Shown here: piece after piece, positions 341 through 41,854 of the stretch
How positions within the stretch are numbered: the first letter of the stretch is position 1
Layout of the letters: each line of letters starts with the position of its first letter
Source: Verrucomicrobiaceae bacterium
GTDB taxonomy: Bacteria > Verrucomicrobiota > Verrucomicrobiia > Verrucomicrobiales > Akkermansiaceae
Direction of reading: 5' to 3'
Length of the DNA: 64,000 nt
Assembly: GCA_027487435.1 (NCBI GenBank)
Contig: JAIYDP010000355.1
Coordinates: 1-64,000, forward strand
Notes under the pieces: generated by a model
The model's input: the letters and a program-made list of their open reading frames with translations, nothing else
The model's database searches: none
Told to the model about the DNA's origin: nothing
Program-made: the position numbers and the translations under genes

Positions 341-2716
341 ATGAAAAGCAACACACTCACACCCGATTCACTTCACAAGATAGACGCCTATTGGCGTGCC
401 GCTAACTATCTGTCTGTGGGTCAGATTTATCTCTACGATAATCCATTGCTGAAGCGACCGCTTAGTCTGGAAGACGTGAAGCACATGCTGCTGGGCCACT
501 GGGGGACGACACCGGGACAGAACTTCATCTACGCGCACCTCAACCGAGTCATCAAAAAATACGACCTCAACATGATCTATGTTTCCGGCCCCGGCCATGG
601 TGGTCCCGCCGTGGTGGCAAACACGTACCTCGAAGGAACCTACAGCGAGATTTATCCAAATATCAGCAGGGATGAGGACGGGCTGCGGAAACTCTTCCGG
701 CAGTTCTCCTTTCCCGGTGGCATCCCCAGTCATGCTTCCCCGGAGTGTCCCGGCTCGATCCACGAGGGCGGCGAGCTAGGCTATTCGCTCAGTCATTCGT
801 TCGGCGCGGTATTCGATAATCCCGATCTGCTCGTCGCCTGTGTCATTGGCGACGGCGAGGCGGAGACAGGCCCCTTAGCCACCGCTTGGCATTCCAATAA
901 GTTCCTCAATCCTGTGTCCGACGGCGCGGTTCTGCCGATCCTCCATCTCAACGGCTACAAGATTGCCAACCCTTCCGTTCTCGCTCGCATCACGCGTGAG
1001 GAGTTGGATCAATTGTTCCGCGGATACGGATGGAAGCCCTATTTCGTCGAGGAGGAACCCACTGACCTCATGCATGAAGCGATGGCTACAACGCTCGATC
1101 AAGCGGTGGAAGAAATCAAACGTATCCAACACGAAGCGCGCATCTCAGGTAGCCTGCTCCGTCCTCGCTGGCCGATGATCGTGCTGAATTCCCTAAAGGG
1201 ATGGACGGGGCCGAAATGGGTCGATGGCGCGCAAAATGAGGGCACCTTCCATGCGCACCAGGTGCCGATCTCAGATCCATCCAGCCACCCAGGGCATCTG
1301 CGTTTGTTGGAATACTGGTTGAAGAGTTATTGTCCGAACGATCTCTTCGATGAGGAGGGGAAATTGAAGCCCGAGTTGGCAGAACTCGCTCCTGTAGGCG
1401 AACGGCGGATGGGAGCGAATTCACATGCCAATGGTGGATTGCTGCTTCGTGATTTGCGAATGCCGGATTTCCGCGACTACGCGGCGGATGTGCCAGAGCC
1501 AGGTTCACACGGCGGCGGCGATACCCGAGTGCTCGGGCCGTTTCTGCGTGACATCGCAAAGCTCAACAGCCAGCAGCGGAACTTCCGTGTTTTCAGCCCC
1601 GATGAGACGATTTCCAACGGCTTGGGTGCGCTCTTCGAGGTCACAAATCGGCAATGGACGGCCGCGACGGTAGCAAACGACGAATTTTTATCGCCCTCTG
1701 GACGAGTCCTAGAAATGCTCAGCGAACATCAATGCGAGGGCTGGCTAGAGGGCTACCTGCTCACCGGAAGGCATGGAATTTACAATTGCTACGAGGCATT
1801 CATTCACATCGTTGATTCGATGTTTAACCAGCACGCGAAATGGTTGAAGGTGACCTCTCATCTGGCATGGCGACCAAAAATCGCATCCCTGAACTATCTC
1901 CTGACATCGCATGTCTGGCGGCAGGATCACAATGGTTTCACGCATCAAGACCCCGGTTTCATCGACCACGTCATGAATAAAAAAGCCGAGATCGTGCGTG
2001 TCTATCTCCCGCCAGATGCGAACTGCCTGCTCTCCGTCATGGATCATTGCCTGCGTAGCCGCCACTACGTGAACGTGGTGATCGCCGGGAAGCACCCAGC
2101 TCCCCAGTGGCTGACCATGGACGCGGCGGTGAAGCACTGCATCAAGGGCATCGGCATCTGGGAATGGGCTAGCAATGATGGCGATGGCTCACCGGATGTG
2201 GTCATGGCCTGCTGTGGTGATGTGCCGACCTTGGAGACACTCGCCGCCGTTTCCCTTTTACGCCAGCATTTGCCCGACCTGAAAATCCGCGTGATCAACG
2301 TGGTCGATCTCATGAAACTACAACCCCAGCTCGAACATCCGCACGGTTTGAGCGACGTTGATTTCGATGAGCTCTTCACCAACGACAAACCGGTCATCTT
2401 CGCCTTTCACGCCTACCCATGGCAGATACATAAGTTGACGTATCGGCGCACCAATCACGACAACTTCCACGTCCGCGGCTACAAGGAGGAGGGGACGATT
2501 ACCACGCCATTCGACATGACGGTGCTCAACGAAATCGACCGCTATCATCTGGTGATGGATACCATCGACCGTCTGCCGCAAACCGCTGACAAGGGCATCT
2601 ATCTGAAGCAGCAACTTAAGGAGAAGCTGATCGAGCACAAGCAATACATCGACAAGCACGGCCAAGACATGCCTGAGATCCGCAACTGGAAATGGGGCGC
2701 TTCACCCCCGCAGTAA
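341..2716 (+). CDS. xfp: Xylulose-5-phosphate/fructose-6-phosphate phosphoketolase
   Basis: Thiamine-diphosphate enzyme that cleaves xylulose 5-phosphate or fructose 6-phosphate with phosphate to acetyl phosphate plus glyceraldehyde 3-phosphate or erythrose 4-phosphate. The 791-residue length is typical of the family. Near the N-terminus are the substrate-site pattern [10 protein letters not shown] and GPGHGG. The cofactor pattern GDGEAETGP, followed by [10 protein letters not shown], lies around residue 170. The protein ends [11 protein letters not shown]. An aldolase and a sugar-phosphate-type histidine phosphatase follow on the same strand, which fits a bifid-shunt-like module. An oddity is that the last 25 codons recur in diverged form at 6581-6655, on the far side of an accessory insertion. 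Substrate preference (X5P versus F6P) cannot be told from sequence alone. Confidence 0.96.
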
Positions 2717-2786
2717 CCCGAACGACAATCCCCCCATCGCAGAGCATCACACGCTCCCACGCTCACAGGAGACTGGAAACATCCGA

Positions 2787-3305
2787 TCAACCAGCGCTGC
2801 ACCCACATTTTCCGCAAAACATGTTTCCCCGCCCCTCGTATGAGAATTCACAGAGCTTCATAGCCGGTAAGATCGCACCATCGGCCCCCATGATGTGTGA
2901 TTGAATTCCTCTTCTGCAGCCCGCAGCCACAGAACTGTTCCTAGTAGCCACATAACTGTTCTTAGCAGCAACATAACTGTTCTTAGCAGCCAGAGAACTG
3001 TTCTTAGCAGCCAGAGAACTGTTCTTAGCAGCCACAGAACTGTTCTTAGCAGCCGCAGAACTGTTCTTAGCAGCCGCAGAACTGTTCCTAGCAGCCATAG
3101 AACTGTTCCTAGCAGTCAAAGAACTGTTCCTAGCAGCCAGAGAACTGTTCCTAGCAGTCAAAGAACTATTCCTAGCAGTCACAGAACTGTTCCTAGCATC
3201 CACAAAACGATTCTTAGCAAAACCAAAAAACCTTTGATTTTTCAGTAAATCTCCCAAATCACCGAACAACTCAAAACATGATTCAAACAACTGCTTAAAA
3301 ATCAA
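2787..3305 (-). CDS. Possible heptapeptide-repeat protein (doubtful coding)
   Basis: A 172-codon open frame runs through the 21-bp array and reads as about 14 copies of A-[RK]-N-S-S-[VLAM]-[AT]. Before the repeat it reads FFGFAKNRFVD, similar to the GFAK leader of the array at 38.5 kb. In this frame the differences between copies are mostly conservative (R/K, V/L/A/M), whereas the opposite frame would swap Pro and Leu, so this strand is the better coding candidate. Against it: the frame opens with TTG, I see no ribosome site, and a 21-bp repeat lacking stops is automatically open for its whole length. It may be non-coding DNA. Confidence 0.3.
   Translation of the reverse strand: MIFKQLFESCFELFGDLGDLLKNQRFFGFAKNRFVDARNSSVTARNSSLTARNSSLAARNSSLTARNSSMAARNSSAAAKNSSAAAKNSSVAAKNSSLAAKNSSLAAKNSYVAAKNSYVATRNSSVAAGCRRGIQSHIMGADGAILPAMKLCEFSYEGRGNMFCGKCGCSAG
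2925..3218. repeat. 21-bp tandem array, 14 units, each with an AGAAC-T-GTTCY dyad
   Basis: Fourteen head-to-tail units of exactly 21 bp. The core AGAACTGTTCYTAGC is nearly invariant, and the 5' six bases (AGYCRN type) vary. AGAAC-T-GTTCT within the core is a perfect palindrome; the Y=C variants break it by one base. Units are contiguous with no spacers. The last unit (3198-3218) is the most degenerate. The array lies about 210 bp after the xfp stop, inside the block bounded by the two xfp tails. Confidence 0.95.
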
Positions 3306-3330
3306 AAATCACAACCCAAGTCTTGCTCTT

Positions 3331-3426
3331 ATCCGTGTCCATCCCTGTCCATCTGTGGTGAAAAACTCTTCCGTATATCCAGAGCCCAAGAATCGCCACC
3401 ACAGATAAACGGTGATGAACACAGAT
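3331..3426. repeat. 30-bp imperfect inverted repeat
   Basis: Arms at 3331-3360 and 3397-3426 match as reverse complements at 24 of 30 positions, with a 36-bp centre. The arms have the ATCCGTGTCCATC / ATCTGTGGTG character that I recall as a widespread intergenic repeat in verrucomicrobia and some other bacteria. No protein is encoded. It could be a non-autonomous mobile repeat. Confidence 0.65.
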
Positions 3427-3444
3427 CAAACAATCGCAGCAATA

Positions 3445-3471
3445 GTGGCGGCACTTGGAAAGTGCCGCCAC
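3445..3471. repeat. REP-like hairpin
   Basis: GTGGCGGCACT-TGGAA-AGTGCCGCCAC is a perfect 11-bp stem with a 5-base loop. It has no following T-run, so it resembles a REP-type palindrome rather than a terminator. Its sequence differs from the GCCGGC REPs near 42.9 and 43.6 kb. The rest of 3472-3666 shows nothing I can name. Confidence 0.6.
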
Positions 3472-3666
3472 CTACGTTGCGAGATTCCTTTCATTTCCCA
3501 TCTGTCAAACAAGTTTCCTTCCCATCGGCCATCAGATCAATACCCGCGTCATCAAGCGCCCTTCAGCCGCAAACCTTCATTCAGGAAGAAAAATGCCAGC
3601 CGTCCCTTGAAAGCTTGCCAGCCTGCGCATGATCCGCTAGGAAGTCATCCGTAACCTGCAAACACC

Positions 3667-5553
3667 ATGAGAGCCCCCAGATCTATCCACCGAAACGATC
3701 CCCCGCAGAAGCACCACTTTTCCCCGCGCTTGTGCTTACGACGTACATGGTCGGCGATGTGGGCAGTCGGAACAACCTTTCTCGTGTCCGCTCTGCACGC
3801 AGGAATCGGCGTGATGGACTGGGAAGGCGGCGCAAACTGCAGCTCCTCGTTTAGCGCATCTGGCTTGGTATTCACCAACGCTCGGGGCACCATTTGCTCC
3901 ACCAGCAACCCCGGCAGCAATTCCGTCTCAAACGGATCGACTCACACCAACGATGTCACAGGCCTGCGGGTGGTTCATCAATACGGACTCACCTTTACTC
4001 CCGTCCAAATGGACGTGGGGGAATATTCTCGAACAGTGAAAACCGCAGACCTTGGGTTTATCGGTCACAAGGCGGACGGCTCGGTCGTGACCGTTCGGGC
4101 TCCACTCGACGGGATCGCTGACGGGCCCGGCGGAGTGCCAGACTTCCAGACTTTCGTATTCCCCGCGTCCTTCGAAAACATTGTCCGCCTCGAGGTGCCC
4201 TCCGTTTCGTGGAGCTTCGACAATTTTTTCTTCTCAACTGTCATTCCTCCTCCTCTACCTGTGGAGCAGGGTCTCGGGGCAAGTTATCGTTCGATTCAAT
4301 CCGTTTACTCAAAAACGGTTCTTTCGAACGAAATGATTGTGGGGCCGGACTACGTGGTGAACTCCGGCTTCTATTCGCCCGAAAGCACAAAGTTCCTCCT
4401 GCCAGAGAACCGGCTTTGGTTGACGGATACCCGCACGCCGTACTACTCGCGCGAGACATCCACGCTCTACTATGCCGACTTCACACGCAACGCGCTCTTC
4501 AGTTACAGCAACGGCGTGATGAGCACCGTAGCCACCACAGCCGATACCTTGGCCGCCGGCTTGCAGATGCAGACACTGGTCTTTCCCCGACCGATCGGCA
4601 ACACGCTGGTGTTCATGGGTTATCGTACGCGAGACAATGACCAGTATGCGCTGTTTGCTAAGACCTCTGGCGTGACCCGCACCCTGATTACGCCGCAAAC
4701 AGTATTGCCCGGACCGCCTGGCACGCCGCCTTCGACTCCCGCCTGGTTTCCAGACGACATCGCAGTCCATGCCACGGGTTTCGCGTTCGATACCTCGCTA
4801 GCCAGAGAGAGTCGCATTCATCGGCTCTATCGCGCTACATTAAGCGGTGAAATCCGCTACGTCGTGGGGGAAAACGACGTGATCCCGATCGCAGGTGGAA
4901 GCGCTACTGTGACCGACCTCCAAACCTATGCATTCAACGCGGCTGGCGAACTCGAGGTGAATGTCACGCTACATACCGGTGCAGCCCTGCTCGTTTACGA
5001 TTCGGCTGGTATTCGCCAGGTCATCCAAACAGCGGGGCGCACCGTGGCTCCGGTCAACGCTGGGAAAACGGTCTCCGTCAAGCCTTTTCCCAGTAGTCCG
5101 GCTCTGCTCACCGCTGCGTCCACGGGCGAACTCTTCCGCGAGAGTGACGGACGTTTTTTCCACGTGCTCGGCGTCGGCGACAAGATCGAGGACGAGACTA
5201 TCGCGCACCTCGAGTTGAAGGCGGTGCCTTCATCACCTCCAGCTCGCGTGGTGGTCGAGGTGCGCTATGACTCCAGTCCGTCCATAGCTCACCTTCTGGA
5301 GGTCGAGTTAGCGACCCCCATCATCCACCCGCCCCGCTTGGGTGCGATCAAAGTGCATCCTGAATCAGGTGACTGGTTTGTGCCGCTCAGCCACACCACG
5401 GCGGGCAAAACCCAGTGGCTCTCCCGCTCCAACGATTTGAAAACATGGCAACGGCTTTGGACGGTGCCGTTGATCAGCCCACTACAGCACGTGATCATCC
5501 CGCGCAACCAGACACTAACACCCTCCGCGTTTTTCCGCATTGAGGAGGAGTAA
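3667..5553 (+). CDS. Secreted protein of unknown function with C-terminal FFR-type domain
   Basis: A 628-residue protein. The N-terminus carries two Arg (LRRTW) followed by a hydrophobic stretch ending around SALHAG, which looks like a long signal peptide; Met-31 (position 3757) is an alternative start. Residues about 45-200 form a region beginning GVMDWEGG, reminiscent of secreted PVC domains built around 'SFDNF' patterns. The middle resembles a beta-propeller-like repeat region. The last about 70 residues contain 'WLSRSNDLKTWQRLW' and end FFRIEEE, a tail type shared with the other giant secreted proteins here. It is the only large gene in the block between the two xfp tails, so it may be cargo. 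Function unknown. Confidence 0.75.
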   Translation: MRAPRSIHRNDPPQKHHFSPRLCLRRTWSAMWAVGTTFLVSALHAGIGVMDWEGGANCSSSFSASGLVFTNARGTICSTSNPGSNSVSNGSTHTNDVTGLRVVHQYGLTFTPVQMDVGEYSRTVKTADLGFIGHKADGSVVTVRAPLDGIADGPGGVPDFQTFVFPASFENIVRLEVPSVSWSFDNFFFSTVIPPPLPVEQGLGASYRSIQSVYSKTVLSNEMIVGPDYVVNSGFYSPESTKFLLPENRLWLTDTRTPYYSRETSTLYYADFTRNALFSYSNGVMSTVATTADTLAAGLQMQTLVFPRPIGNTLVFMGYRTRDNDQYALFAKTSGVTRTLITPQTVLPGPPGTPPSTPAWFPDDIAVHATGFAFDTSLARESRIHRLYRATLSGEIRYVVGENDVIPIAGGSATVTDLQTYAFNAAGELEVNVTLHTGAALLVYDSAGIRQVIQTAGRTVAPVNAGKTVSVKPFPSSPALLTAASTGELFRESDGRFFHVLGVGDKIEDETIAHLELKAVPSSPPARVVVEVRYDSSPSIAHLLEVELATPIIHPPRLGAIKVHPESGDWFVPLSHTTAGKTQWLSRSNDLKTWQRLWTVPLISPLQHVIIPRNQTLTPSAFFRIEEE

Positions 5554-5717
5554 TCACCGATTGATGAAATCTCATGCGAGTCCCAAATAAAAGACATTTG
5601 CACCCCTAACCTTTCTCATAGCAGATCAATCCATCAGCTTCACCAACTCCGCGCTCCCGAGATGCAGATACGATTGCGACTGCTGGAAGCCGCCTTTTCT
5701 GCGGCGGGGGGGCATTG

Positions 5718-5751
5718 AGCGCAGTGGATGTGAATCCATTGCGGTAGCGCT
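5718..5751. other. Stem-loop of unknown role
   Basis: AGCGCAGTGGAT / ATCCATTGCG can pair, with an outer AGCGC/GCGCT match, and a run of A follows. It lies between the secreted protein and the convergent toxin gene. It could act as a terminator on the minus strand, where the A-run reads as T. Weak. Confidence 0.3.
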
Positions 5752-5800
5752 GCAAAAAAACAAATCGCCGCTGGGCGCGAAGCTGGGAAGGACGTGAATG

Positions 5801-6220
5801 TTACGCCAGCGGATTTACCACCACCAAACCAAGCGGGCGGAGCAATTCAAAGTGTTTGGCATTGTCTGTCACCAGCGTATGCCCTTTGGCAAGACATTGC
5901 GCCGCAAGTAAGGTGTCTTCACAGGGCAAAGTCCGGCGGATGGATTTCAGGAACGAGAAAACCCGCTTCCACTCCAGCAGCCAATCGGTGTCCACTGGCT
6001 CGATCGCTTCGGCAAAATCCACTTCGGTTTGAGTGATGCGTTGCGTCAATAGCGGCTGGTGTGTGGCATCAGCCAGTTCCACGCCGTAGCGCATTTCCGC
6101 AATCGTCACTGAACTAATGAAGCTGTTCGCCTCGTTTTTCCGCAGCCACGCCTTGAATTTGGCGGGGAGGTGTTTCTTGTGGCACAGCGAAATCAGGTTG
6201 GTATCGATCAGGAAGCTCAT
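5801..6220 (-). CDS. vapC: VapC-type PIN-domain toxin ribonuclease
   Basis: A 139-residue PIN domain. Acidic residues expected for the metal site are present: D in FLIDTNLIS near the N-terminus, E in TIAEMRYG, D in CEDTLLAA and D in VTDNAKHF. VapC toxins cut specific RNAs (often tRNA or rRNA) and are held inactive by a cognate antitoxin. The start overlaps the antitoxin stop by 4 bp (ATGA), the usual translational coupling. The pair sits next to the second xfp tail, consistent with cargo of an accessory block. Confidence 0.9.
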   Translation of the reverse strand: MSFLIDTNLISLCHKKHLPAKFKAWLRKNEANSFISSVTIAEMRYGVELADATHQPLLTQRITQTEVDFAEAIEPVDTDWLLEWKRVFSFLKSIRRTLPCEDTLLAAQCLAKGHTLVTDNAKHFELLRPLGLVVVNPLA

Positions 6221-6465
6221 TTGAACGGCATGGTGTGACGTTTCACCTTGGGAAATGCAACGGTCTGGCCTTCCAGATGCGCGAGCAAACCGACCGCGCC
6301 CCGCCGTTTTTGTGGACGCGGGGTAATCAGCAGGCTTTGCCGCCCGTCATCCAATACGCGAACATCACAAGGCCCACCGTTGATCAATCCCGCCTGTTTG
6401 CGCCAACTGGCCGGGAATTGAGCCTGTCCTTTTTCGGTGATGGTCAAGGTTTTTAGTGTTTTCAT
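6217..6465 (-). CDS. vapB: AbrB/SpoVT-type antitoxin partner of the PIN toxin
   Basis: An 82-residue protein reading MKTLKTLTITEKGQAQFP, the swapped-hairpin AbrB-like N-terminus seen in VapB/AbrB antitoxins, followed by a short basic tail. The frame is open further upstream to 6624, but the AbrB fold begins at this Met, so I chose 6465. Met five codons upstream is also possible. It probably represses its own promoter and neutralises the toxin encoded directly downstream. Confidence 0.85.
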   Translation of the reverse strand: MKTLKTLTITEKGQAQFPASWRKQAGLINGGPCDVRVLDDGRQSLLITPRPQKRRGAVGLLAHLEGQTVAFPKVKRHTMPFK

Positions 6466-6580
6466 GCGGCAATCGTTCATTACATCGTTCCGGAAGTCAA
6501 ACGGTTTCATCAAATGCAATACACAAGACTTATCATCAGAAGCCAACTTGTGCGGCTTGAATGGGGTATTTCCGAATTCC

Positions 6581-6655
6581 CAACGCGTCGGCAAATACAG
6601 CCAAGACATGCCCGAGATCCGCAACGGGAAATGGCGCGCGAGGCGTCTTCAGTAG
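6581..6655 (+). pseudogene. Orphan copy of the xfp 3' end
   Basis: Aligned without gaps to 2642-2716 at a fixed offset of 3939 bp. The first 59 bases match at 49 positions, the same reading frame is kept (QDMPEIRN-x-KW) and both copies stop at the same distance (TAA versus TAG). The most likely reading is a remnant of xfp left at the right edge of an inserted block. It is not a gene on its own. Confidence 0.85.
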
Positions 6656-6661
6656 GGATAC

Positions 6662-6693: not shown

Positions 6694-6777
6694 TTTCTAT
6701 CGCAAGTCTGCAACCTCTGCATACCTAGCGATTTCTACATCTTACTTTGTATCGTAGAAAGAGAATCCCATTTTTAC

Positions 6778-7821
6778 ATGGAACCAATGGAAATGAATGC
6801 GAAACAACTCATGGAAACCGCTAGGGCGTTGATGGCCGATGGCAAGGGACTGCTGGCGATGGATGAAAGTGATCCCACCTGCAACAAGCGCTTTGAGAAG
6901 CTGGGAATTCCCCAAACGCTGGAGGCAAGGCGCGCCTATCGGGAACTGATCGTGACCACTCCGCGACTGGGCGAGTCGATCAGCGGGGCGATTCTCTACG
7001 ATGCTACGATCCACCAGAAAACGAAGGACGGAGTTTCTCTCGTTGAAGTCCTCTCCAAGGCGGGAATCATACCTAGCATCAAGGTTGACAGTGGGGCTGA
7101 TGCATTGGCAGGTCATCCCGGAGAAAAAATAACCGGAGGCTTGGATCGACTGCGCGAGCGGCTCGCTGAGTATGCTAAACTGGGTGCCCGTTTCGCCAAG
7201 TGGCGTGCCGTCATTACCATCGGCGAAGGTCTTCCGACCTGTGCGTGTGTCCATGCAAACGCTCATGCCTTAGCTCGGTATGTGGCATTGTGCCAGGAGG
7301 CCGGGATAGTCCCAATCGTCGAACCAGAAGTGCTGATGGATGGCAGTCATTCGCTGAAGCGGTGTTGTGAGGTGACGGAGAAAATCATCCGCGCGATGTT
7401 TCATGAGTTTTATGATCAGCGAGTGATGATCGAAGGGATCATTCTAAAAACCAACATGATTCTTCCTGGTTTGAAGTGCCCGAAACAGGAGTCGGTCGAG
7501 GAAGTGGCCGATGCGACGGTCATGTGCCTGATGCGTGTGGTTCCCGCAGCGGTTCCAGGGATCGCATTTCTATCGGGCGGTCAGTCTGGGGAATTGGCTT
7601 CCGCTCGGTTGAACGCGATGAATGTTCGCTTTCGTTCGCGTCTTCCTTGGCCGCTTTCGTTCTCATTTGCCCGCGCCATCCAACAACCGGCTATGGAGAT
7701 TTGGCGGGGGGATGACGGCAACATCAAGGCCGCGCAAGAGGCTCTGTTGCATCGTGCCAACTGCAATCGTGCCGCACGGCGCGGAGAATACTCCAGCGCG
7801 ATGGAGAAGCCACAGATCTAG
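6778..7821 (+). CDS. Class I fructose-bisphosphate aldolase
   Basis: A 347-residue Schiff-base aldolase interconverting fructose 1,6-bisphosphate with dihydroxyacetone phosphate and glyceraldehyde 3-phosphate. Family signatures: GLLAMDESDPTCNKRF near the N-terminus, KWRAVI mid-protein, the Schiff-base lysine in ILKTNMILPG, and GIAFLSGGQS. ATG codons at 6778, 6787 and 6793 are all possible starts. It follows the orphan xfp tail, so xfp and this gene were probably adjacent before the 3.9-kb block arose. The histidine phosphatase begins 14 bp after its stop. Confidence 0.95.
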   Translation: MEPMEMNAKQLMETARALMADGKGLLAMDESDPTCNKRFEKLGIPQTLEARRAYRELIVTTPRLGESISGAILYDATIHQKTKDGVSLVEVLSKAGIIPSIKVDSGADALAGHPGEKITGGLDRLRERLAEYAKLGARFAKWRAVITIGEGLPTCACVHANAHALARYVALCQEAGIVPIVEPEVLMDGSHSLKRCCEVTEKIIRAMFHEFYDQRVMIEGIILKTNMILPGLKCPKQESVEEVADATVMCLMRVVPAAVPGIAFLSGGQSGELASARLNAMNVRFRSRLPWPLSFSFARAIQQPAMEIWRGDDGNIKAAQEALLHRANCNRAARRGEYSSAMEKPQI

Positions 7822-7835
7822 AACGCTCATTTTTT

Positions 7836-8501: not shown

Positions 8502-8513
8502 GGGAAGGGTTTT

Positions 8514-32295: not shown

Positions 32296-32305
32296 CTAAG
32301 TTCGC

Positions 32306-32446: not shown

Positions 32447-32554
32447 GCCACACCGCCATGATGCCGATGCGACCGTAGAGGGAGAAGAAGAACTCTAGAC
32501 ATTCAACTATATGATGACGCAGGCCAAGCGGCTGTCGGGGGCTTGATCGGTGGC

Positions 32555-32765
32555 TCATTTGAGCCAGAAGGCGACGTGGCCCTGCGTGGTGTCCTTCCGG
32601 TCGCGGAAGAAGGTGGTGATCCGCTCTGCAAAGCTGGGATGCGCCAAAGGGTAGCCGGAGTTCGCCGGGATTCAGATCCAGACCGAACCGGGCAAGCCAC
32701 TCATGGCAATCCCGCAGCGCCACCGCCCCGGTAACTTCATGGAAGTTTTTCCAGAGATACAAACT
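32555..32765 (-). pseudogene. Degenerate unidentified gene fragment
   Basis: On the minus strand a readable stretch WLARFGLDLNPGELRLP shifts frame and continues AHPSFAERITTFFRDRKD to a stop after HVAFWLK. The join of two frames suggests a decayed coding fragment. The family is not recognised. The flanks 32447-32554 and 32766-32869 show nothing I can name. Confidence 0.35.
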
Positions 32766-32869
32766 CGTCCTCCTGAGTGGAGAAGTCTTCTGCGCAGCAC
32801 AAACTACAGTCTATTCGGTGTAATACAATCCGCAACCAGCGAGATAGTTTTATGCTTCAGCATCTTATA

Positions 32870-35800
32870 TTAATTGGCGAAAATCCTATAAAATGCGGCA
32901 CTGTCTGGAGATGTGAAATCAAATTCAAACTTGCCATCATCGGTTATCCTGGTCTGTGGTGCAGTTAGCGGGAAGGGTGTGAAGTTTCGCAAATCCGTGG
33001 ACTTCTGAATTCCGATTCTCAAGGTGAATAGGCCCGTGGATGCATTCTTGGTGAGTTTTGGAGCATCAAGGTTTAGGCCGTTTCCATTACCAAGTCCACC
33101 GATCTCCGCATTGGTGAAATAGATGCCGACCATGGCTGGTTGTGCCACCTGCCAGTCAAAGCCAAGTGCTTCCATCTGAAACTCGGCTGCGTCATTCAGT
33201 CCATCGCCATCTGTGTCGGCAGTGGACGACAAGCTGGTTCCGGTGAGTTCGATATCGTAAGGATTCTCGTCGGTATCATTGCTGGCGATGTGCAGGACGG
33301 CAGACTTCAGACCGCCACCGACGGGGGTGAATGTTACGGCGAAGGTAGTGCTACCCGTAGGGCCGGTCACTGGGGCTGTGGGCAAGGTCGTCACAGTGAA
33401 TTGGGACGCGTCCGGTCCATCAATGGTCATTCCAAGCCCCGTTAGGTTAGAATTGCCTGTGTTTGTGATGACAAAAGTCAGAACCGCAGGACGTCCAACT
33501 GTCGCTGGTCCGAAGTTCCGGCTTCCACCATCGCTGATGGCGCTACCCGAATGGCTCACGCCAATCTCGGGTGCGGGAGATAATCTGGTCACTGAGACGG
33601 TATAGGTTCGGCTTGCATTCCCGTTGTCTGCCGTCACAACAATGGTCAGCGTGTTGTTACCGGGGAAAAGGAATAGGGGAGTACTGGCCATTCCGGATAT
33701 AACAGGAACTCCATTGACCGTGACTGTGGAGCCCGGTGATGCGACAGTCGGTGTGACTGCAATGCTGGAGGTTGTGCTAGGAACGCTCGCTGCGTAGCTG
33801 GTTGTCGTACTGATAAAAGCTGGAGTGAGAGAGCCCGCACTCAGAGCTAGGTTGGATAGATTGGCATTAAATCCCGCTGTCGTGAATACCACCTCAGCAC
33901 TCCGCACCGTGCCGCCGGAGCTGATCCCATGAAGGCGGAATCGATAGGTCGTGCCCGGACTCAATCCGGTGATCGACGCACTAACGGGGATTGTGTCGAT
34001 CCCGGAAACTTGCGAAGGGCTACCGGTCAAAGTAAATCCATATGCGCTGGTCTGCCCATAATCGAAGCCCGCCGTCGTGGTGCTGCCGTTGGGGTTGATG
34101 CTTCCGTTCAAAACGGCGGAGGTCGAGGTGATTGATGTCGCCGCGAGGGCTGTTACCACGGCAGGCGGAGGCGATGCGACAATGCCGACACTATGCAAAG
34201 CCGTGGCCCCACTGCGACCGACCGCGAAGAATTCCCCGACCCTCAGCCCAGATGCATTGACCACCATAGGGACATTGCTCGAACCTGGCATACCGGTTCC
34301 GAGTTCACCTTCACCATTGTAGCCCCAGGAACAGATTGTCCCATCTGAGCATGAAACCAGGCTATGGACTGCTCCCGCCGAGAGATCGACGACCGTTTTT
34401 CCCGTAAGAGCGCCACTGGAAACCACAACGACCGGAGTGATTCTTTGAAGATTTGTTCCATCGCCTAACTCTCCATTTGCGTTGTTGCCCCACGCCACCA
34501 AACTACCATCCGAGTTCAGAGCAATGCTGTGGTAGTAGCCGGCGCTGACCTTCGTGATTTGTTTGGCAGAGAGAACCCCAGACCGATCGACGAGAACAGG
34601 AATGCGACGCGACTGCGTGGAATTGTCACCGAGCTGCCCGTTGCCATTGTAGCCCCAACTAGCCAGGGTGCCATCGCTGCAGAGGGCAAAACTGTGGAAT
34701 GAACCGGCACAAACGGAGGTAATGGATTTTCCGGCCAACACACCAGAGGTGTCAACGGCAACCGGCAGCGGGCTAAATCCTGTGCCACCGTTTCCTAATT
34801 CTCCGTTGCCATTGTAACCCCATGCGGCCAGCGTCCCATCGGAACATAGCGCGAAACTGTGATAGCTGCCCGCTGCGATGGAGATGATGGTTTTTCCGGA
34901 GAGAACACCGGTCCTGCTCACAGCCACTGGGATGTTACTGTTGGACGTTGTTCCATTGCCGAGTTGCCCATAGAAATTGTATCCCCAGGCCACAAGGGTT
35001 CCATCAGAACAAAGCGCGAGGTTGTGAAATTGGCCTGCAGCGATCGCGATCACCGTCTTGCCAGAGAGTGCGGTTCCGCTTACGGAAATAGGAATGTTGC
35101 TATCATTAAAAGTTCCGTTTCCTAGTTGTCCGAAGGCATTGTATCCCCATGAGGCAACACGACCATCCGAGGTCAAGGCGATGCTATGGTTGCTACCGCT
35201 CGCCGTATCGAAGACGGTCTTGCCCACCAGTGGCGATTCCTCATTCACGGGCGCAGGAATCGGGCTATCAGTGATGGAATTATTCCCCAGTTGCCCGCTT
35301 CCATTCGAGCCCCATGCGAACAAGCGGGTATTCGCCCAGTGTAGCACCAAATCATTGCCGGTGCCCCCATAATAGTTAGCCACAAATTGGTGTGATACTC
35401 CGCCATGAAACAAACTCACTAGTTGACCATGGGTTAGATTGCTGAAAGACCCGCTAATCAGCCCCTGGCTGGTGTTGTTGATGAGCGTCAAATTCGTTCC
35501 GGGTTGAGGCGCGAAACCCAGTCCCAGCACGGCCGTGTTGCCCGTAGCGTTTAATCCATTGACCGTGACTGGTATGATCCCAGACGAAGAAAATGTGGTA
35601 ACCAGTGGCTGACGCGTTACCACGAGCGTGTAGGTCTTGGTGGAAGAATTCTGCGCAGTAACGAGAATCGTAATGGTGTTGGTTCCCACATTGAGGTTGA
35701 TGGAATTACTGGCCAAGCCAGATGTCACAATTGTTCCATTAACACGAACGATTGCTGTGACATCCACTACCGACGGACTGACCGTGATGCTTGTGGCAGA

Positions 35801-38011
35801 GTAGGAAACCGCAGCCGTGTAAGCCGTAGTGGCGGCATCAAAAGTCGGAGAAAGCGACCCTGCGCTGGGCACCAGCGAGGAGAGATCCGCATTCGCGCTC
35901 AAGCGGGTGACTGTGATGTTAGTGGTTCTAGTCGTGATATTGTCCTGCGCTGTGACAACTACCGTGATGATATTCGCACCAACGGCCAGATTGATGGACC
36001 CGCTGTTGCTACCGGAGGTCACGACGTTCCCGTTCACCCTAACCGTGGCTGTCGTAGCCGCTAGTGTGGGTCTGACGGTGATTGACTCTGTCGTGTTGGA
36101 TACGCTGGCAGAATATTCTGTGACGGTGGATGAAAAGCTCGGCGATAACGAACCTGTACTAAGCGAAAGTGAGGAAAGGTTGGCGTTGTTACTCGCTGCG
36201 ATGAAGGTCATGTTTGCCCCTGGAGTGGTCCCAAGTGCATTTGTGGCGACCACCCGGTATTGGTAGGTTGTGCCCGCCACCAGCCCCGTGATATTTGCAC
36301 TGACAGCGGTATCGGCGCTGTCTGAAATAGGAGAGGGTGTGGCCGCTACTGAGGTACCATAAGAAGTAGTGAGCCCGTATTCGAAAGAAATGCTCGTGCT
36401 GTTGAAGTTCGCGTTCACGAGACCATTCAGAGTCGCGCTGCTGCTGCTGAGGGCTGTAGCAGCGAGTGTTTCCGCTGACGGACGAGCCTGACTGGCGACG
36501 ATAGCGAGAGAATGCTGCCCTCCGGCGTCGAATCCAGGCGACGAGACCATAAATTTATCTCCTGAAGGCAGGAACGAAGAATCCACGGCGACACCAGCGA
36601 AGGCACTCGTCGAGCTATTGTTTCCCAGTTCGCCGTCATTATTGCCTCCCCAGGCGGCCAAACTGCCATCGGAGAACTGGGCAAGGCTAAAGGAGCTACC
36701 AGCATCGATGCCAATCACGGTTTTTCCAGTAAACACCGCGGATGGGAAGACACCTACGGGACTAGTTCTGCTCACGGAGCTATTGTCGCCTAATGTACCA
36801 GAACTATTGCTACCCCATGTTGCGACCGTACCATCAGAACATAAAGCCATGCTATGAGAATTACCTGCGGCGACTGAAGTCACGATTTTTCCAGATAAAA
36901 TGCCGGTGCTCACAACGGCGACGGGCACAAGAGAGCCGCTAGTTTGAGTGCCTATTCCCAGCCTTCCTGCATAGCCATCACTACCCCAAGACACCGCCTG
37001 TCCACTGGCAATGGCCAGGCTATGAGCATCACCTGCGGAAATCCCCGAAATAACCTTCCCCGCTAAAGCTCCGGCCAATGGAATGATCACAGGAACCGGA
37101 CTGCCCGCCGTGCTGTTGTTGCCAAATCGCCCTTCACTGTTGTTTCCCCAAGCGACCAGAGTCCCATCGGCGCACAGCGCCAGGCTGTGCGAGCCTCCGG
37201 CCGATATCTTAACAACCGTCTTTCCTGAAAGCGCTCCGCTGGTACTAACGAGAACCGGAACCGAACTGTTTGCTGTGATGTTGTTTCCCAACTGCCCGTT
37301 CGCCCCCGCTCCCCAAGCCGCAACGGTCCCGTCCGAACAGAGCGCGAGACTGAATGAAGTACCCGCTGAAATGGCGACCACGGTCTTTCCCGCTAGTACA
37401 CCCGATTGGATGACCGGTACCGGAACAATACTGTCTGTCGTGCTGTTGTTTCCTAACTGCCCAGATCCGTTCTCACCCCAGGCTGCCAAGGTCCCGTCCG
37501 AGCAAAGTGCGAGACTGTGATCACCTCCTACTGCAACAGTAAGAATGGTCTTTCCTTTGAGCACACCATTAGAAAGGACGTTGGTCGCAACGCGTCGGTC
37601 GGTTGTGGTTCCGTCCCCTAAATTGCCATCCCAATTATCACCCCAGGCCACCACCCGATTGTTGGCCCATTGCAGCACCAGGTCATTTCCATCCCCTCCG
37701 TAATAATTCGCCGTGTAATTGTAGCCAATGCCGCCGAAAACAAGAGCGACCTTTTGTCCCTGTGCAAGATTGCTAAACCTCCCTTGGATGAATGGCAAAC
37801 CAGTATGGCTTACGACGGTGAGATTCGTCCCGACCTCTGGCGCAAACCCGAGGCTCAGATTCACCGTATTTCCCGTTGCGATGTAATTAGACGAGGTGAC
37901 AGGGATATGTGTGGCGGATTCCCAGTTCGCATTCAAAACCTGAGCCTGCGCGGAAATCGAGAGAATCGACAGAGAGAACAAATGATAGAGGAAAAATTTT
38001 AGTTTAAACAT
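32870..38011 (-). CDS. Giant secreted RCC1-repeat protein with duplicated halves
   Basis: A 1713-residue secreted protein with signal peptide ending SAQAQ. It is built as two similar halves. Each has an autotransporter-like domain ending YYGGxGNDLVLxWA, seven RCC1-type repeats (pattern AWG-x-N-x-x-GQLGN ... SLALCSDGT), a fibronectin-III-like domain, and cadherin-like beta-sandwich modules (NANLSSLSLSTGSLSP). After the second half come an ASH-like domain (ITNTGNSNLTGL, NDTDENPYDIELTGT) and the 'QKSTDLRNFTPF ... FYRIFAN' tail. Seven repeats make one closed RCC1 propeller, so two propellers are predicted. It lies in the block between the priA tails. Probable surface or adhesion role, by analogy only. 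Confidence 0.88.
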   Translation of the reverse strand: MFKLKFFLYHLFSLSILSISAQAQVLNANWESATHIPVTSSNYIATGNTVNLSLGFAPEVGTNLTVVSHTGLPFIQGRFSNLAQGQKVALVFGGIGYNYTANYYGGDGNDLVLQWANNRVVAWGDNWDGNLGDGTTTDRRVATNVLSNGVLKGKTILTVAVGGDHSLALCSDGTLAAWGENGSGQLGNNSTTDSIVPVPVIQSGVLAGKTVVAISAGTSFSLALCSDGTVAAWGAGANGQLGNNITANSSVPVLVSTSGALSGKTVVKISAGGSHSLALCADGTLVAWGNNSEGRFGNNSTAGSPVPVIIPLAGALAGKVISGISAGDAHSLAIASGQAVSWGSDGYAGRLGIGTQTSGSLVPVAVVSTGILSGKIVTSVAAGNSHSMALCSDGTVATWGSNSSGTLGDNSSVSRTSPVGVFPSAVFTGKTVIGIDAGSSFSLAQFSDGSLAAWGGNNDGELGNNSSTSAFAGVAVDSSFLPSGDKFMVSSPGFDAGGQHSLAIVASQARPSAETLAATALSSSSATLNGLVNANFNSTSISFEYGLTTSYGTSVAATPSPISDSADTAVSANITGLVAGTTYQYRVVATNALGTTPGANMTFIAASNNANLSSLSLSTGSLSPSFSSTVTEYSASVSNTTESITVRPTLAATTATVRVNGNVVTSGSNSGSINLAVGANIITVVVTAQDNITTRTTNITVTRLSANADLSSLVPSAGSLSPTFDAATTAYTAAVSYSATSITVSPSVVDVTAIVRVNGTIVTSGLASNSINLNVGTNTITILVTAQNSSTKTYTLVVTRQPLVTTFSSSGIIPVTVNGLNATGNTAVLGLGFAPQPGTNLTLINNTSQGLISGSFSNLTHGQLVSLFHGGVSHQFVANYYGGTGNDLVLHWANTRLFAWGSNGSGQLGNNSITDSPIPAPVNEESPLVGKTVFDTASGSNHSIALTSDGRVASWGYNAFGQLGNGTFNDSNIPISVSGTALSGKTVIAIAAGQFHNLALCSDGTLVAWGYNFYGQLGNGTTSNSNIPVAVSRTGVLSGKTIISIAAGSYHSFALCSDGTLAAWGYNGNGELGNGGTGFSPLPVAVDTSGVLAGKSITSVCAGSFHSFALCSDGTLASWGYNGNGQLGDNSTQSRRIPVLVDRSGVLSAKQITKVSAGYYHSIALNSDGSLVAWGNNANGELGDGTNLQRITPVVVVSSGALTGKTVVDLSAGAVHSLVSCSDGTICSWGYNGEGELGTGMPGSSNVPMVVNASGLRVGEFFAVGRSGATALHSVGIVASPPPAVVTALAATSITSTSAVLNGSINPNGSTTTAGFDYGQTSAYGFTLTGSPSQVSGIDTIPVSASITGLSPGTTYRFRLHGISSGGTVRSAEVVFTTAGFNANLSNLALSAGSLTPAFISTTTSYAASVPSTTSSIAVTPTVASPGSTVTVNGVPVISGMASTPLFLFPGNNTLTIVVTADNGNASRTYTVSVTRLSPAPEIGVSHSGSAISDGGSRNFGPATVGRPAVLTFVITNTGNSNLTGLGMTIDGPDASQFTVTTLPTAPVTGPTGSTTFAVTFTPVGGGLKSAVLHIASNDTDENPYDIELTGTSLSSTADTDGDGLNDAAEFQMEALGFDWQVAQPAMVGIYFTNAEIGGLGNGNGLNLDAPKLTKNASTGLFTLRIGIQKSTDLRNFTPFPLTAPQTRITDDGKFEFDFTSPDSAAFYRIFAN

Positions 38012-38172
38012 GGTAGCAAGTGGTATGATAGGATGGATTTAGAGAGCCATTTGGATAGCTGACGGTTGAGTTTGATGTTTCCTCTGAATTCGTAAAGCCA
38101 ATGATTTTTGTTAGCGCATGTTGATCTCACTTCTTAAGCGGAATGCTGTCAGCCAGGAGGGGCTCGTTTTCA

Positions 38173-38433
38173 TTAACCTGCGTATGGCTGGGTGATGGGG
38201 AGTTGGAACTCGCGGCGGATTGGGGTGTTCGCCGGATTGGTGTGGAGCCATTCGGCGTTGGCGGCGAATTGGAGCCATAGGCGACTCTCGGTTGCTAGCT
38301 CGACGAGGGCAGTGCGACAGATTTCCTTCGTCTTGGTTAGGGAGGCGAGTTGGGTATGGTTGATGAGTGAACGGCTGGCGGCGGATTCTGTGGCTTCAGC
38401 GGCTGGCTGAGTGGTGGGGGCTGCGGGTGTCAT
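38173..38433 (-). CDS. Small hypothetical protein beside the 21-bp array
   Basis: An 86-residue open frame with an ATG start: Ala/Pro/Thr-rich N-terminus, then a helical stretch LTKTKEICRTALVELATESR followed by LWLQFAANAEWLHTNP. No signal peptide. The composition looks protein-like, but I do not recognise it. It lies on the other strand from the GFAK frame, 93 bp from the first repeat unit. Confidence 0.45.
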   Translation of the reverse strand: MTPAAPTTQPAAEATESAASRSLINHTQLASLTKTKEICRTALVELATESRLWLQFAANAEWLHTNPANTPIRREFQLPITQPYAG

Positions 38434-38463
38434 AGGATTGAAGTTTGGTACTTTTTTTGGTTT

Positions 38464-38763
38464 TTGTTGGTTGATCAGAGTTGGGAAAGCATTGATTTTC
38501 AGGGTTTTGCCAAGGAAATGGGACGTTCAGAAGGGAAAATCGGTAGCGCAGAAGGGATGGCTAGCATCGCAGTAAGGGCGGTCAGGATCGCAGAAAGAAA
38601 AATCGAGACCGCAGCGAGAAAAATCGGGATCGCAGCGAGCGATTTCGTGCCAAGTGCGAATGAAATCGTCATCGCAGTGAGTGTTTTTGGGATCGCAGAA
38701 GGGAAAATCGGAGCCGCAGAAAGGAAAATCGGAGCCGCAGAAAGGTTATTCCCGATAGGTTGA
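38464..38763 (+). CDS. Possible heptapeptide-repeat protein with GFAK leader (doubtful coding)
   Basis: A 99-codon frame reading a leader DFQGFAKEMGRSEG then about ten heptads of the type A-E-R-K-I-G-[AI]. The hydrophobic position (I/V/F) is kept across units even where DNA differs, which favours this frame. The start would be TTG and no ribosome site is visible. An opposite frame (38822-38499) starts with ATG and is equally open, so coding is uncertain. Confidence 0.3.
   Translation: MLVDQSWESIDFQGFAKEMGRSEGKIGSAEGMASIAVRAVRIAERKIETAARKIGIAASDFVPSANEIVIAVSVFGIAEGKIGAAERKIGAAERLFPIG
38527..38757. repeat. Degenerate 21-bp tandem array, 11 units
   Basis: Eleven contiguous 21-bp units of consensus GCAGAAAGGAAAATCGGAGCC. 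Units 9 and 10 are nearly identical; the middle units (38632-38694) are strongly diverged but keep the period. The consensus is unrelated to the array at 2925, but the period is the same and the leader GGTTTTGCCAAGGAA resembles GGTTTTGCTAAGAAT beside that array. Confidence 0.9.
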
Positions 38764-38846
38764 TTGCACGGGGCAAATGCCAGCCATTTGCAATGGTGGG
38801 GGAGTGGATCAGCGGGATACATAATCAGTTGCTAACTGTCGCGAAG

Positions 38847-39077
38847 CTAGTGAAATAGCAGTTCGTTGGCGAGAAAAAAATGGCAAGAAAATGCCCCGCA
38901 GTAAAGAGCGCTTTCGTGGTAGTTCAACGCGGTGGCATGTTGGCGGTAGTATGAATCGGGTGCGAACTTGGGATCGACGGGAGTGGGCGGCTGGTGGGTG
39001 AAGTCGGAGAGCAGTTTTTCCGTATATTCATCGGCGCTGAGGAAGGATTGGGCTTGGTTGATTTGTCGGCGGTCCAT
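38847..39077 (-). CDS. Small hypothetical protein beside the 21-bp array
   Basis: A 76-residue open frame with an ATG start: MDRRQINQAQSFLSADEYTE, then KLLSDFTHQPPTPVDPKF and YYRQHATALNYHESALYCGA. The ordered, charged N-terminus looks like a real protein. There is no known domain. It is on the same strand as the 86-residue ORF on the other side of the array. Nothing recognisable lies in 39078-39351. Confidence 0.45.
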   Translation of the reverse strand: MDRRQINQAQSFLSADEYTEKLLSDFTHQPPTPVDPKFAPDSYYRQHATALNYHESALYCGAFSCHFFLANELLFH

Positions 39078-39351
39078 GATGTTTTTTGGTTGGAACTAGA
39101 AAAAATCAAAAATCAGGCGGTGGCTTCACAATGCAAGGTGACAGACAAAATATAACAATCCCATTCAAGTATGGCAACGCGACAAGGCAACATTGACCGG
39201 AAAACACCCCCAGATGCTAGCAATCCACATGTTACGGTTGCGACTTTTTCTGCATATTCTGCGTGAACTTATACCAACTAGATTGGTCGGAGTATCAGTT
39301 GTCTTTTGAATATTGACTTATTCGCTGAACCTGCAAACAAAAGACTCTGTT

Positions 39352-41421
39352 ATGCAGCAGCATGTATCAACCTCAGCACCGATCCAAGATACGATTTCTA
39401 TCTGTCCAGCACCACCATGGGTGAACCGCTCAAGAGTGGTAAACGCGGGTCGGCAGGCGGATGCTCCTCTTACATGCTTGTTGCAGGAGCGGCGCATGCA
39501 CATACCGTTGAAAACAGATTATTTCCGTTATGTGCATCGTCTAGAATCTCCTCAGGCGGTTCAGCAACTCTCTAAGGTGCAGTTCCGATTCGATCCCCAA
39601 GTGGATGATCTGCACATCCATAATGTGTCGATTTTCAGAAATGGGAATTTGACGCAACATGAGAATCTCGATTCGGTGGAATTGCTGAGACGGGAGGAAA
39701 ATCTAGGCAACAACATCATGGACGGCAGCATTTGCGCACTGCTGGTGTTAAAAGATGTCCGGACGGGTGATGTGCTGGACGTGGAGTATTCTATCGTCAG
39801 GAGGGTGGATTTGTTTGATGGCAAAGCGTGTTTGATACACGACGGGCAATATGCGTTTCCCGTGGCTCGCGTCCTTCTTTCTTGGACAGATGAGGAGGAT
39901 CGTCCGTATTTCCAGAAAGGAGAACTTGAGGGTTATCTGTATGCAGAACGCAGCGAATCCGGCATGTTGATCCGTGAGTGGACATGTTCTAATACGCAGG
40001 CATTAGAACCGGAGGATAATGTTCCCGCCGATGTCATTCCCGAGCCATTTCTCCAGTGTTGTAATTTTCCATCATGGGACGCGATTCGTGACGATCTGCT
40101 GAAAAAATGGAACTTCCAACCCGCAGAACGGACATCACTGGATTCCGAAGTGCGAGCCATTCAGGACGAGTGTGGAGCGGAACCTGAAAAGCTACTCGAT
40201 GCGGTATTGATGCGAGTAAGAGACATGGTGCGCTATCAGGCGCGCACCCCTGGATTGCTGGCTATGGTTCCAGAGAATCTTTCCATCGTATGGGAAAGGA
40301 AATACGGTGACTGCAAGGAGAAGACCTTGTTGTTTTGCTGGTTCATGCGCGAGCTTGGGTTCCGCTGTGATCCGGTGCTGGTGCATACACAATTGTGCGG
40401 GCGGATCGAACACATGTTGCCGTTTGCCGGAGCCTTCAATCATGTGGTGGCTCGCTTGAGCTTTGAAAAATCGGAACTATGGATCGATTTGACTGATATT
40501 TATCGAGGGGGCAAACCGAAGGAATGGTGTTCCATGCCGTATCGTGTGGGACTGCCACTCATCGAAGGCAACACTGGCTTACTCTCCATTCCTTACGATA
40601 AAGCCGAGTTAAATGAACTAGAAGTCACTGAAACAGTGCATCTCGACAGCAAGTCACGCAAGGGCAGCATCGTTATGAAACTGAAGGCTGAAGGGCGACG
40701 ATCTGAGTGGCTGAGGGCACTCGTAGATAGCGAAGGATTGCCAGGGATCATGAGATTCATAAAGTCGCTTTGCGAAGTGGGGCGGAAAGGATTTGAGTTC
40801 GACGAAGATCCTAATTGGCAGGATCATCGTGAACTCAATTTGATGACGATTGAGGTCAAAGGCCATGTAGCCGACATGATCAAACCTGATCCCGAATACG
40901 CTCGGGATTTTGTCAATCTGACACCATTTGCGTTCAATGGAGTGCTCGGATTCGTGCCAAAAACCTCGCGCAAGCTACCTTTCGCCCTCTGGCACCCGTG
41001 CGGTGTTTCGCACGAAATCACCGTTGTTCATCCGTCACTCAACAAGGCGGACTGGCCGCGAAAGTCGGCAAAGGATGAGCACGTGATTTTCGATTGCGGC
41101 AGCCGCCTCGCGGGAAGCAATCCGGTGTATTGGTTCAAATATAAAACGCTAACCGACAGGATCGAACCCAAGCAATTACCACTCTATAAAAACAAATTGG
41201 AATCGATATTGAAAGGGCTCGATATCATGTTGCAACTGCCAAGCCATGGGAGAAGAACGATCAAGTCCGATGATCCCGAGCATGTCTGGGGCGGCGGGAT
41301 TAGCTCACCCACTCATGAACGAGCTTGGAAGAAAAATGAATCCGTCAACATTGTCCATTTCGTTTGGATCGCACTTTTCGTGGCTTTCATCATCATTCGC
41401 ATTTTTATGGCAATCTTATGA
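39352..41421 (+). CDS. DUF3857/transglutaminase-like protein with C-terminal membrane anchor
   Basis: A 689-residue protein. The N-terminal about 220 residues fit the DUF3857 beta domain (VQFRFDPQVDDLHIHNVSIF, VLDVEYSIVRR). A transglutaminase-like core follows, with candidate catalytic Cys in ERKYGDCKEKTLL, His in FNHVVARL and Asp in WIDLTD. After a long beta-rich part comes a membrane helix near the C-terminus (FVWIALFVAFIIIRIFMAIL). I see no signal peptide, so topology is uncertain. Start ATG 39352; an in-frame TTG at 39313 is possible. It is the last gene in the block before the orphan priA tail. Confidence 0.8.
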   Translation: MQQHVSTSAPIQDTISICPAPPWVNRSRVVNAGRQADAPLTCLLQERRMHIPLKTDYFRYVHRLESPQAVQQLSKVQFRFDPQVDDLHIHNVSIFRNGNLTQHENLDSVELLRREENLGNNIMDGSICALLVLKDVRTGDVLDVEYSIVRRVDLFDGKACLIHDGQYAFPVARVLLSWTDEEDRPYFQKGELEGYLYAERSESGMLIREWTCSNTQALEPEDNVPADVIPEPFLQCCNFPSWDAIRDDLLKKWNFQPAERTSLDSEVRAIQDECGAEPEKLLDAVLMRVRDMVRYQARTPGLLAMVPENLSIVWERKYGDCKEKTLLFCWFMRELGFRCDPVLVHTQLCGRIEHMLPFAGAFNHVVARLSFEKSELWIDLTDIYRGGKPKEWCSMPYRVGLPLIEGNTGLLSIPYDKAELNELEVTETVHLDSKSRKGSIVMKLKAEGRRSEWLRALVDSEGLPGIMRFIKSLCEVGRKGFEFDEDPNWQDHRELNLMTIEVKGHVADMIKPDPEYARDFVNLTPFAFNGVLGFVPKTSRKLPFALWHPCGVSHEITVVHPSLNKADWPRKSAKDEHVIFDCGSRLAGSNPVYWFKYKTLTDRIEPKQLPLYKNKLESILKGLDIMLQLPSHGRRTIKSDDPEHVWGGGISSPTHERAWKKNESVNIVHFVWIALFVAFIIIRIFMAIL

Positions 41422-41611
41422 TTCTGTCGCATGAGAAAAGCTTTATCTGAATCTGGATTCATTTTGCCTAATTCTTCGCCACTGAAGAGCAACTGATTTT
41501 TGAACCAAAAAATCGGCTGCATCTCAGGGCAAAAAAACTCTAGCATCAGCTGGTAGTGCGCAGGCCGGAGGCGATGGCATTATGCAAAGTGACTGTCCCT
41601 TAGCAGAGTTC

Positions 41612-41639
41612 TCGACATTTTTTCTGATTCGCCTATAAT
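41612..41639 (+). promoter_or_regulatory. Sigma-70-type promoter upstream of the protease gene
   Basis: TCGACA, 16 bases, TATAAT. It is the best consensus-like promoter I found in the window. The transcript would run through the orphan priA tail as a leader of about 230 bases before the protease ATG. The rest of 41422-41752 shows nothing else. Confidence 0.55.
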
Positions 41640-41752
41640 CTGGGAATGCGTAGAGCGAGATGGATAGCACCTTTTGCGAAATTCGGGAAGATGTATTCCT
41701 TGGACAACTGGATGCTTTTCCTTACAATCTCGGCAAGAATTCAATCGAAGTG

Positions 41753-41854
41753 TCCCAATGCCTGTGCCCTCACTCGTCATGTCCAAGAGGTCTTAAAAAA
41801 ACCCTCCCTCTCGGAAGACGTTATTGTTACGTTTGACATGGACGCGCTCAGTTT
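41753..41854 (+). pseudogene. Orphan copy of the priA 3' end
   Basis: Gapless match to 31495-31596 at offset 10258, with 95 of 102 bases identical by my count. It reads CALTRHVQEVLKKPSLSEDV then FDMDALSFS. The priA stop is not retained and the frame runs on to 41879. Upstream similarity stops abruptly. It marks the right edge of the accessory block that follows priA. Confidence 0.92.

Follow-up and report, generated by a model that had tools for sequence, protein, structure and literature searches.

Diverged copies of gene tails bound two islands in an Akkermansiaceae genome and may be scars of old insertions at gene 3' ends

What are the blocks of DNA that follow a gene and then end in a second, diverged copy of that gene's last codons? 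Two of them, one behind the phosphoketolase gene xfp (island 1) and one behind priA (island 2), lie in the first 64 kb of contig C151 (JAIYDP010000355.1; 73,159 bp), the stretch that we call the window. The host genome comprises 9.39 Mb in 506 contigs, with a completeness estimate of 82%, and the window priA is closest to the priAs of metagenome-assembled genomes (MAGs) named Akkermansiaceae or Akkermansia (73-77% in the best matches). An earlier note on this DNA had seen in each block an element that carries one 21-bp array next to a leader word, the array being its recognition or identity region and the gene tails its integration scars. Our results point, tentatively, to two old insertions at gene 3' ends in which the gene tail was swapped, likely fossils of site-specific integration whose integrase has been lost. 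The arrays appear to belong to something else.

Both blocks do end in a diverged copy of their gene's last codons, as the earlier note had reported. The xfp tail at 2649-2700 aligns with 6588-6639 (52 bp, 86.5%, E 6e-10), and the priA tail at 31495-31596 with 41753-41854 (102 bp, 93.1%, E 4e-37), each on the same strand. A whole-genome search placed the priA tail at these two sites only, and its copy departs from the gene by the coding changes R to C, T to P, P to S and A to V. Across the sampled genome the island copies match only their own partner, both window pairs being unique; note that one pair elsewhere, on C395 (81.8%), was not found again at the longer word size of this uniqueness search.

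The same arrangement recurs outside the window. The census of tail copies covered 1.93 Mb of the genome and 1320 open reading frames (ORFs) of at least 450 bp. Sampled contigs had been picked for array-type hits (C24, C287, C289, C356, C498, C461, C153, C203), for leader hits (C340, C351, C371), mostly for repeat hits (C447, C316, C40, C81, C132, C465, C79, C247, C395, C310, C350, C384, C123, C469, C71) or for a PIN hit (C505), and 20 of them (0.455 Mb) by taking every 25th contig; tail copies were a selection criterion for the window's contig alone. The last, first or middle 200 bp of each ORF served as the query, and one other unique copy had to be present on the same contig. Since the homology was also required to come within 20 bp of the stop, only the fact that it does not run past the stop is informative. 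With this filter, eight tail copies lay downstream on the same strand (seven without a case of repetitive extragenic palindromic (REP) hairpins, described below), three upstream on the same strand and one inverted, while the controls gave four copies of gene heads in all and six of gene middles. Downstream same-strand placement thus accounted for 7/11 tail hits versus 1/4 (p 0.008). The rows dropped for several hits, for lying in repeats, for lying inside ORFs >600 bp and for not touching the end numbered 18, 5, 9 and 5 for tails, 18, 9, 9 and 4 for heads, and 6, 1, 16 and 0 for middles.

This leaves seven tail-bounded islands in the 1.93 Mb, the window's two included, to which the loci L149 and L145 of relatives are added. 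The inserts of the seven measure 1.45-10.1 kb, and the target gene differs each time in this genome; one target, at C356:40264-41688, looks PilC-like from its sequence, a name that comes from no family model. A doubtful tenth case is C356:29788-30457, where the pair 29788-29828 and 30417-30457 around a YafQ/RelB gene pair had looked like a clean 0.5-kb example. Its copy lies partly in a dispersed ~80-bp repeat, for which the census dropped it, and the homology does not end at the called stop.

Where the copies begin and end bears most directly on how they arose. When the seven cases and L149 were re-aligned with 300 bp past the stop (leaving out the REP case and four hits that do not touch the end), the homology started at -109 to -46 and ended at -16 to +6. 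By comparison, two of the three upstream copies run past the stop, by 38 and 41 bp. An in-frame stop is kept in the copies at xfp, C447, C80 and L149. In known cases, integration at a gene 3' end yields a tail swap when the element brings the missing gene end, as with the prophages e14 and phage 21 in icd of Escherichia coli, where the gene tail is duplicated and diverged, the element supplies the replacement 3' end and the native tail lies downstream. In our reading, the incoming DNA would have brought along the last ~50-110 bp of the target gene in a version of its own; recombination there would have given the gene a new tail and stranded the old one beyond the insert, where it would be decaying. 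For the enzyme step we prefer Campbell-type site-specific integration by integrases since lost, the product of which would be att-flanked remnants without integrase.

The enzyme step has a close rival. DNA of a relative, arriving by natural transformation or another transfer, could have recombined in the conserved gene tail through RecA or a phage-type short-homology recombinase, with the other end joined illegitimately or via a circular form and the native tail thereby preserved; homology-facilitated illegitimate recombination has been described (PMC3240628). The absence of any resident phage- or ICE-type (integrative and conjugative element) integrase among our matches, the change of target gene from case to case and the often chromosomal-looking cargo all fit such homology-driven insertion. 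However, the copies reach just 46-109 bp into the gene, where a broad range up to hundreds of bp would be expected, and no longer ones occur among the same-strand downstream copies. Because the tail lengths are so narrow, we favour an att-like site and consider homology-driven insertion somewhat unlikely.

An empty site in relatives shows the direction of one such swap. In L146 and L153 the gene for an SNF2-type helicase is separated from a thioredoxin-like gene by 16 bp and 3 bp, respectively, and in L149 a 976-bp islet stands between the two. The islet holds a PIN-like gene (21.3 bits, under the Pfam cut-off of 23.6), and the stop of its tail copy is 10 bp from the thioredoxin-like gene. The flank of the copy scores 21 and 27 against the flanks in L146 and L153, compared with 4 and 4 for the flank of the L149 helicase gene. 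The distal copy therefore sits in the native place, L146 and L153 show the empty site, and the helicase gene carries another version of the tail. The two versions differ in three synonymous positions and the stop codon and in nothing else, as would also be the case between orthologues that met by homology-driven insertion. We infer that the window's two islands arose in the same way as that of L149, and likewise infer the enzyme.

Among the priA loci of relatives with at least 1 kb downstream (n=71), L145, an Akkermansiaceae MAG with a 0.33-kb insert behind priA, has a clear tail copy downstream; the match in L132 is weaker (35 bp), and that in L128 (20 bp) lies upstream. The insert of L145 contains an ORF without a Pfam match that we label antitoxin-like, and its tail copy is followed by a weak IS91-like match (24.2 bits, cut-off 125). 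Together with the remnant of an IS1634 transposase that opens island 2, and with the priA copy, whose coding changes look like decay, this match would suit insertion by a transposition-like route that duplicated an unusually long target site (40-110 bp), the two copies diverging later and no foreign tail being involved. Such a duplication would have no reason to end at the stop codon, though, and the homology stops by +6 bp in 8/8 re-aligned cases; nor does decay sit well with the purely synonymous differences of L149. We regard a long target duplication as quite unlikely.

Several results weigh against a site-specific fossil. Without the window, downstream same-strand placement falls to 5/9 tail hits (p 0.049), and case numbers are small throughout. 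The loci of relatives (863 genes, loci of 22 kb at most) have no tail excess, with one tail copy, or two with L145, which the in-ORF filter had removed, versus three heads. In L158 the helicase and thioredoxin-like genes are ~3.8 kb apart. An empty site was not found for the window islands, priA having been checked in 80 named loci, nor for the C356 4.2-kb island (14 loci) or the C80 island (16 loci); most loci in this search extend <10 kb, and gene order is mostly unconserved around priA and the C356 and C80 target genes. Several islands hold ordinary-looking chromosomal genes, and, bar the homologous priA tails, island ends resemble one another no more than shuffled controls do. The scan of the island ORFs, which covered all but the small ones and a few genes, gave no match to integrases or transfer genes. 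Genome-wide, the tyrosine-recombinase matches are four, namely one XerC-like, one XerD-like, an integron integrase and a partial one, and serine resolvases gave none. The recombinase was therefore lost, or the insertion used homology. Because the YafQ/RelB case is doubtful and the relatives lack a tail excess, our confidence in the site-specific fossil is slightly lowered.

The same small numbers and the same lack of excess in relatives would be expected if the tail copies were decayed second gene copies or chance matches with no common insertion process, and one gene of the C40 island does resemble, by eye, a paralogue of its target gene. Leftovers of gene families would hardly be so consistent in orientation and in their boundary at the stop codon, nor would they leave the empty site seen for L149, and we find this account improbable. 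A more specific proposal dispenses with the integrase altogether: in some Akkermansiaceae, short homology in the last ~50-110 bp would admit foreign cassettes, some as small as one PIN-type toxin gene, with the target gene restored by a tail swap, at ~3-4 detectable scars per Mb here (7 in 1.93 Mb, window's two included). We think this route unlikely. The earlier note's claim that the tails are integration scars thus gains from the recurrence of the pattern, from homology that does not pass the stop and from the empty site in one relative, and for the window we keep to site-specific integration as the preferred, tentative step.

Are the 21-bp arrays part of these islands? Both blocks hold one, as had been claimed, although that of island 2 is much weaker: its two runs, 38585-38639 (2.6 copies) and 38694-38745 (2.5 copies), score 82 and 97 versus 405 for island 1. 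The window contains no further 21-bp array at a score of at least 40, so the earlier statement holds there. It does not hold for the genome: the window's own contig carries 21-bp arrays 9 kb further on (C151:72926-73056), and a non-random sample of 1.82 Mb, drawn from 48 whole or partial contigs, contains 63 tandem arrays outside large ORFs, of which 37 repeat at 21 bp or a multiple of it and are built from many different units. The corresponding counts are 2/13 in the every-25th-contig sample and 7/30 in 80 loci of relatives (1.31 Mb). Tail-bounded islands contain 2/37 arrays, versus 0.69 expected, and both of these come from the discovery window; the other 35 lie outside the eight islands examined, one of them doubtful, so that arrays elsewhere usually lack tail duplications. 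Six of the eight islands have no 21-bp array.

The leader word fares no better as a mark of the islands. Its two exact matches in the window each adjoin an array, which had tied it to the arrays; genome-wide it has five, array-adjacent only in the window, and the other three showed no tandem array in the 0.6-1.5 kb of flank examined on each side. In turn, 35/37 arrays have no leader word within 200 bp. Since the arrays are mostly outside islands and the leader is unlinked, the 21-bp arrays look like a separate, genome-wide class of 21/42-bp tandem arrays that fell in the islands by chance, and since they are common elsewhere, the array is not the islands' recognition region. An element defined by its array would account for the one array and the same 14-base leader in both window islands. 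It is contradicted already by the sampled fifth of the genome, and we hold it to be highly improbable. The units of array 1 vary the would-be peptide, with V, L, M or A at one position; judged from these letters, the heptapeptide therefore gives no sign of selection. Several of the 21- and 42-bp arrays, whose units are of many kinds, lie at the ends of contigs and may have caused the assembly to break there.

How do the islands relate to known elements? Cis-mobilizable elements (CIMEs) are described as decayed elements without integration and transfer genes that keep two flanking sites, the flanking site including the target gene's end (PMC5704250). By that account, gene-end integration and integrase-less remnants are already known. 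Like CIMEs and other att-flanked decayed ICEs and integrative and mobilizable elements, the islands are flanked by related, attL/attR-like repeats at a gene end, in nine cases. Unlike CIMEs, they use several different target genes, and the inserts of two relatives measure 0.33 and 0.98 kb; the usual kind of integrase was not found in the genome. Unlike e14/phage 21-type prophages, the scanned island ORFs matched no phage or integrase genes. What sets the islands apart is how many and how varied the target genes of a single genome are, together with the islets of <1 kb in relatives. Searches of the open-access literature brought up no paper that, judged by title and opening of the abstract, deals with such scars or with 21-bp arrays in Verrucomicrobia.

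The cargo also recalls type II toxin-antitoxin islets. In island 1 a VapC-like PIN gene and a weak AbrB-like partner adjoin the distal xfp tail copy, the start of the possible antitoxin ORF (6217..6624) overlapping that copy, and L149 has its sub-cut-off PIN-like gene; unlike chromosomal islets of this type, both inserts are bounded by gene-tail copies. Toxin-antitoxin genes as the general cargo were rejected. Of 22 PIN loci in the genome (~1.5 kb flanks), three have a repeat pair that touches an ORF tail, in a test for which the window's island 1 is too long to be detected. Only one of the three clearly encloses the PIN gene: L257, by an exact 22-bp repeat, the touched ORF having just 61 codons. 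The pair at L260 does not enclose the PIN gene, and that at L252 links two similar neighbouring ORFs. Integron cassettes often carry toxin-antitoxin genes, and the host genome likewise has an integron integrase (C79, L357 679-1947; TIGR02249 326.6 bits, cut-off 265). Unlike cassettes, the islands have gene tails as boundaries, different each time, in place of a common site, and their ends share no sequence beyond shuffled controls, in a comparison that did not include a search for attC.

Positions of the remaining features are collected in the table. Two further repeat pairs of the window were rejected as tail copies. The pair 48281-48374 and 11294-11386 is a partial copy of a dispersed, imperfect ~170-bp palindrome that resembles a miniature inverted-repeat transposable element and occurs at about 40 loci (48281-48454 and C151:64059-64232; partial at 11294-11386). 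The pair 42919-42951 and 43607-43639 consists of REP hairpins that flank a gene resembling those of REP-associated tyrosine transposases (42968-43462; NF047646 50.5 bits, under the cut-off of 80), and this unit (42919-43639) lies directly behind a trypsin-like protease gene. Repeats of 198 bp occur at 44645-47155, a region whose minus strand has a 1434-aa ORF. On another contig, two phosphodiesterase-TPR genes that resemble each other lie in C40:32450-38869, one within a tail-bounded island and the other at its border; a short secreted-type ORF adjoins each of them.

Two observations concern the flanks. The class I fructose-bisphosphate aldolase gene downstream of island 1 (6778-7821) was matched in 1/57 genomes searched, its own only (E 1e-40 or better), and is therefore perhaps acquired. 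Only L108 has window genes behind its priA, with homologues of 52269, 50829, 50158 and 49505 at 6495-9712 in reversed order; because of this, some of the DNA beyond island 2 may once have been a neighbour of priA and have been inverted since.

Table. Features of the two islands and their flanks (positions in the window)
Feature	Position	Strand	Evidence
Phosphoketolase gene xfp, target gene of island 1	341..2716	+	NCBIfam phosphoketolase NF003619, 1440 bits, cut-off 962
xfp 3' tail	2649..2716	+	Aligned stretch 2649-2700; in-frame correspondence continues to stop
Island 1, 3.87 kb, xfp to its tail copy	2717..6587	.	Tail-pair alignment
ORF over array 1, AARNSSV-like heptads	2787-3305	-	ORF translation
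21-bp array, 14.1 copies	2923..3219	-	Tandem Repeats Finder score 405
Leader word GGTTTTGCTAAGAA	3211..3224	-	Exact match
628-aa ORF in island 1	3667..5553	+	Without Pfam or NCBIfam match
VapC-like PIN-domain gene	5801..6220	-	Pfam PIN 31 bits, cut-off 23.6; NCBIfam VapC 51.5 bits, under cut-off 140
Possible VapB-type antitoxin	6217..6624	-	Weak AbrB-like TIGR01439, E 0.003, 17.2 bits, under cut-off 28.3; without Pfam match
Diverged xfp tail copy	6588..6655	+	Aligned 6588-6639; in-frame stop TAG 6653-6655
Class I fructose-bisphosphate aldolase gene, downstream flank of island 1	6778..7821	+	Pfam PF00274, 425 bits
priA, target gene of island 2	29387..31603	+	TIGR00595 priA, 661 bits, cut-off 230
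priA 3' tail, aligned stretch	31495..31596	+	Tail-pair alignment
IS1634-family transposase, C-terminal remnant, opens island 2	31602..32264	+	NF033559 positions 344-481 of 483, 90.3 bits, cut-off 100
Island 2, 10.15 kb, priA to its tail copy	31604..41752	.	Tail-pair alignment
1713-aa protein, RCC1 repeats and cadherin-like domains	32870..38011	-	Pfam
Leader word GGTTTTGCCAAGGA	38503..38516	+	Exact match
Weak 21-bp array, two runs	38585..38745	+	2.6 and 2.5 copies
DUF3857 protein, 702 aa	39313..41421	+	PF12969, 60.7 bits
Diverged priA tail copy	41753..41854	+	Its frame continues beyond where priA stops

With so many and such varied targets, these scars deserve a dedicated scan; they do not amount to a new kind of system. 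They raise the question of how several gene-tail-bounded inserts arose in a genome in which only XerC/XerD-like recombinases, an integron integrase and one partial match were found. If general, gene-tail copies would be a readable scar for insertions, giving the old flanks and the direction where no integrase or phage gene is left, and such scars would reveal sub-kilobase islets too.

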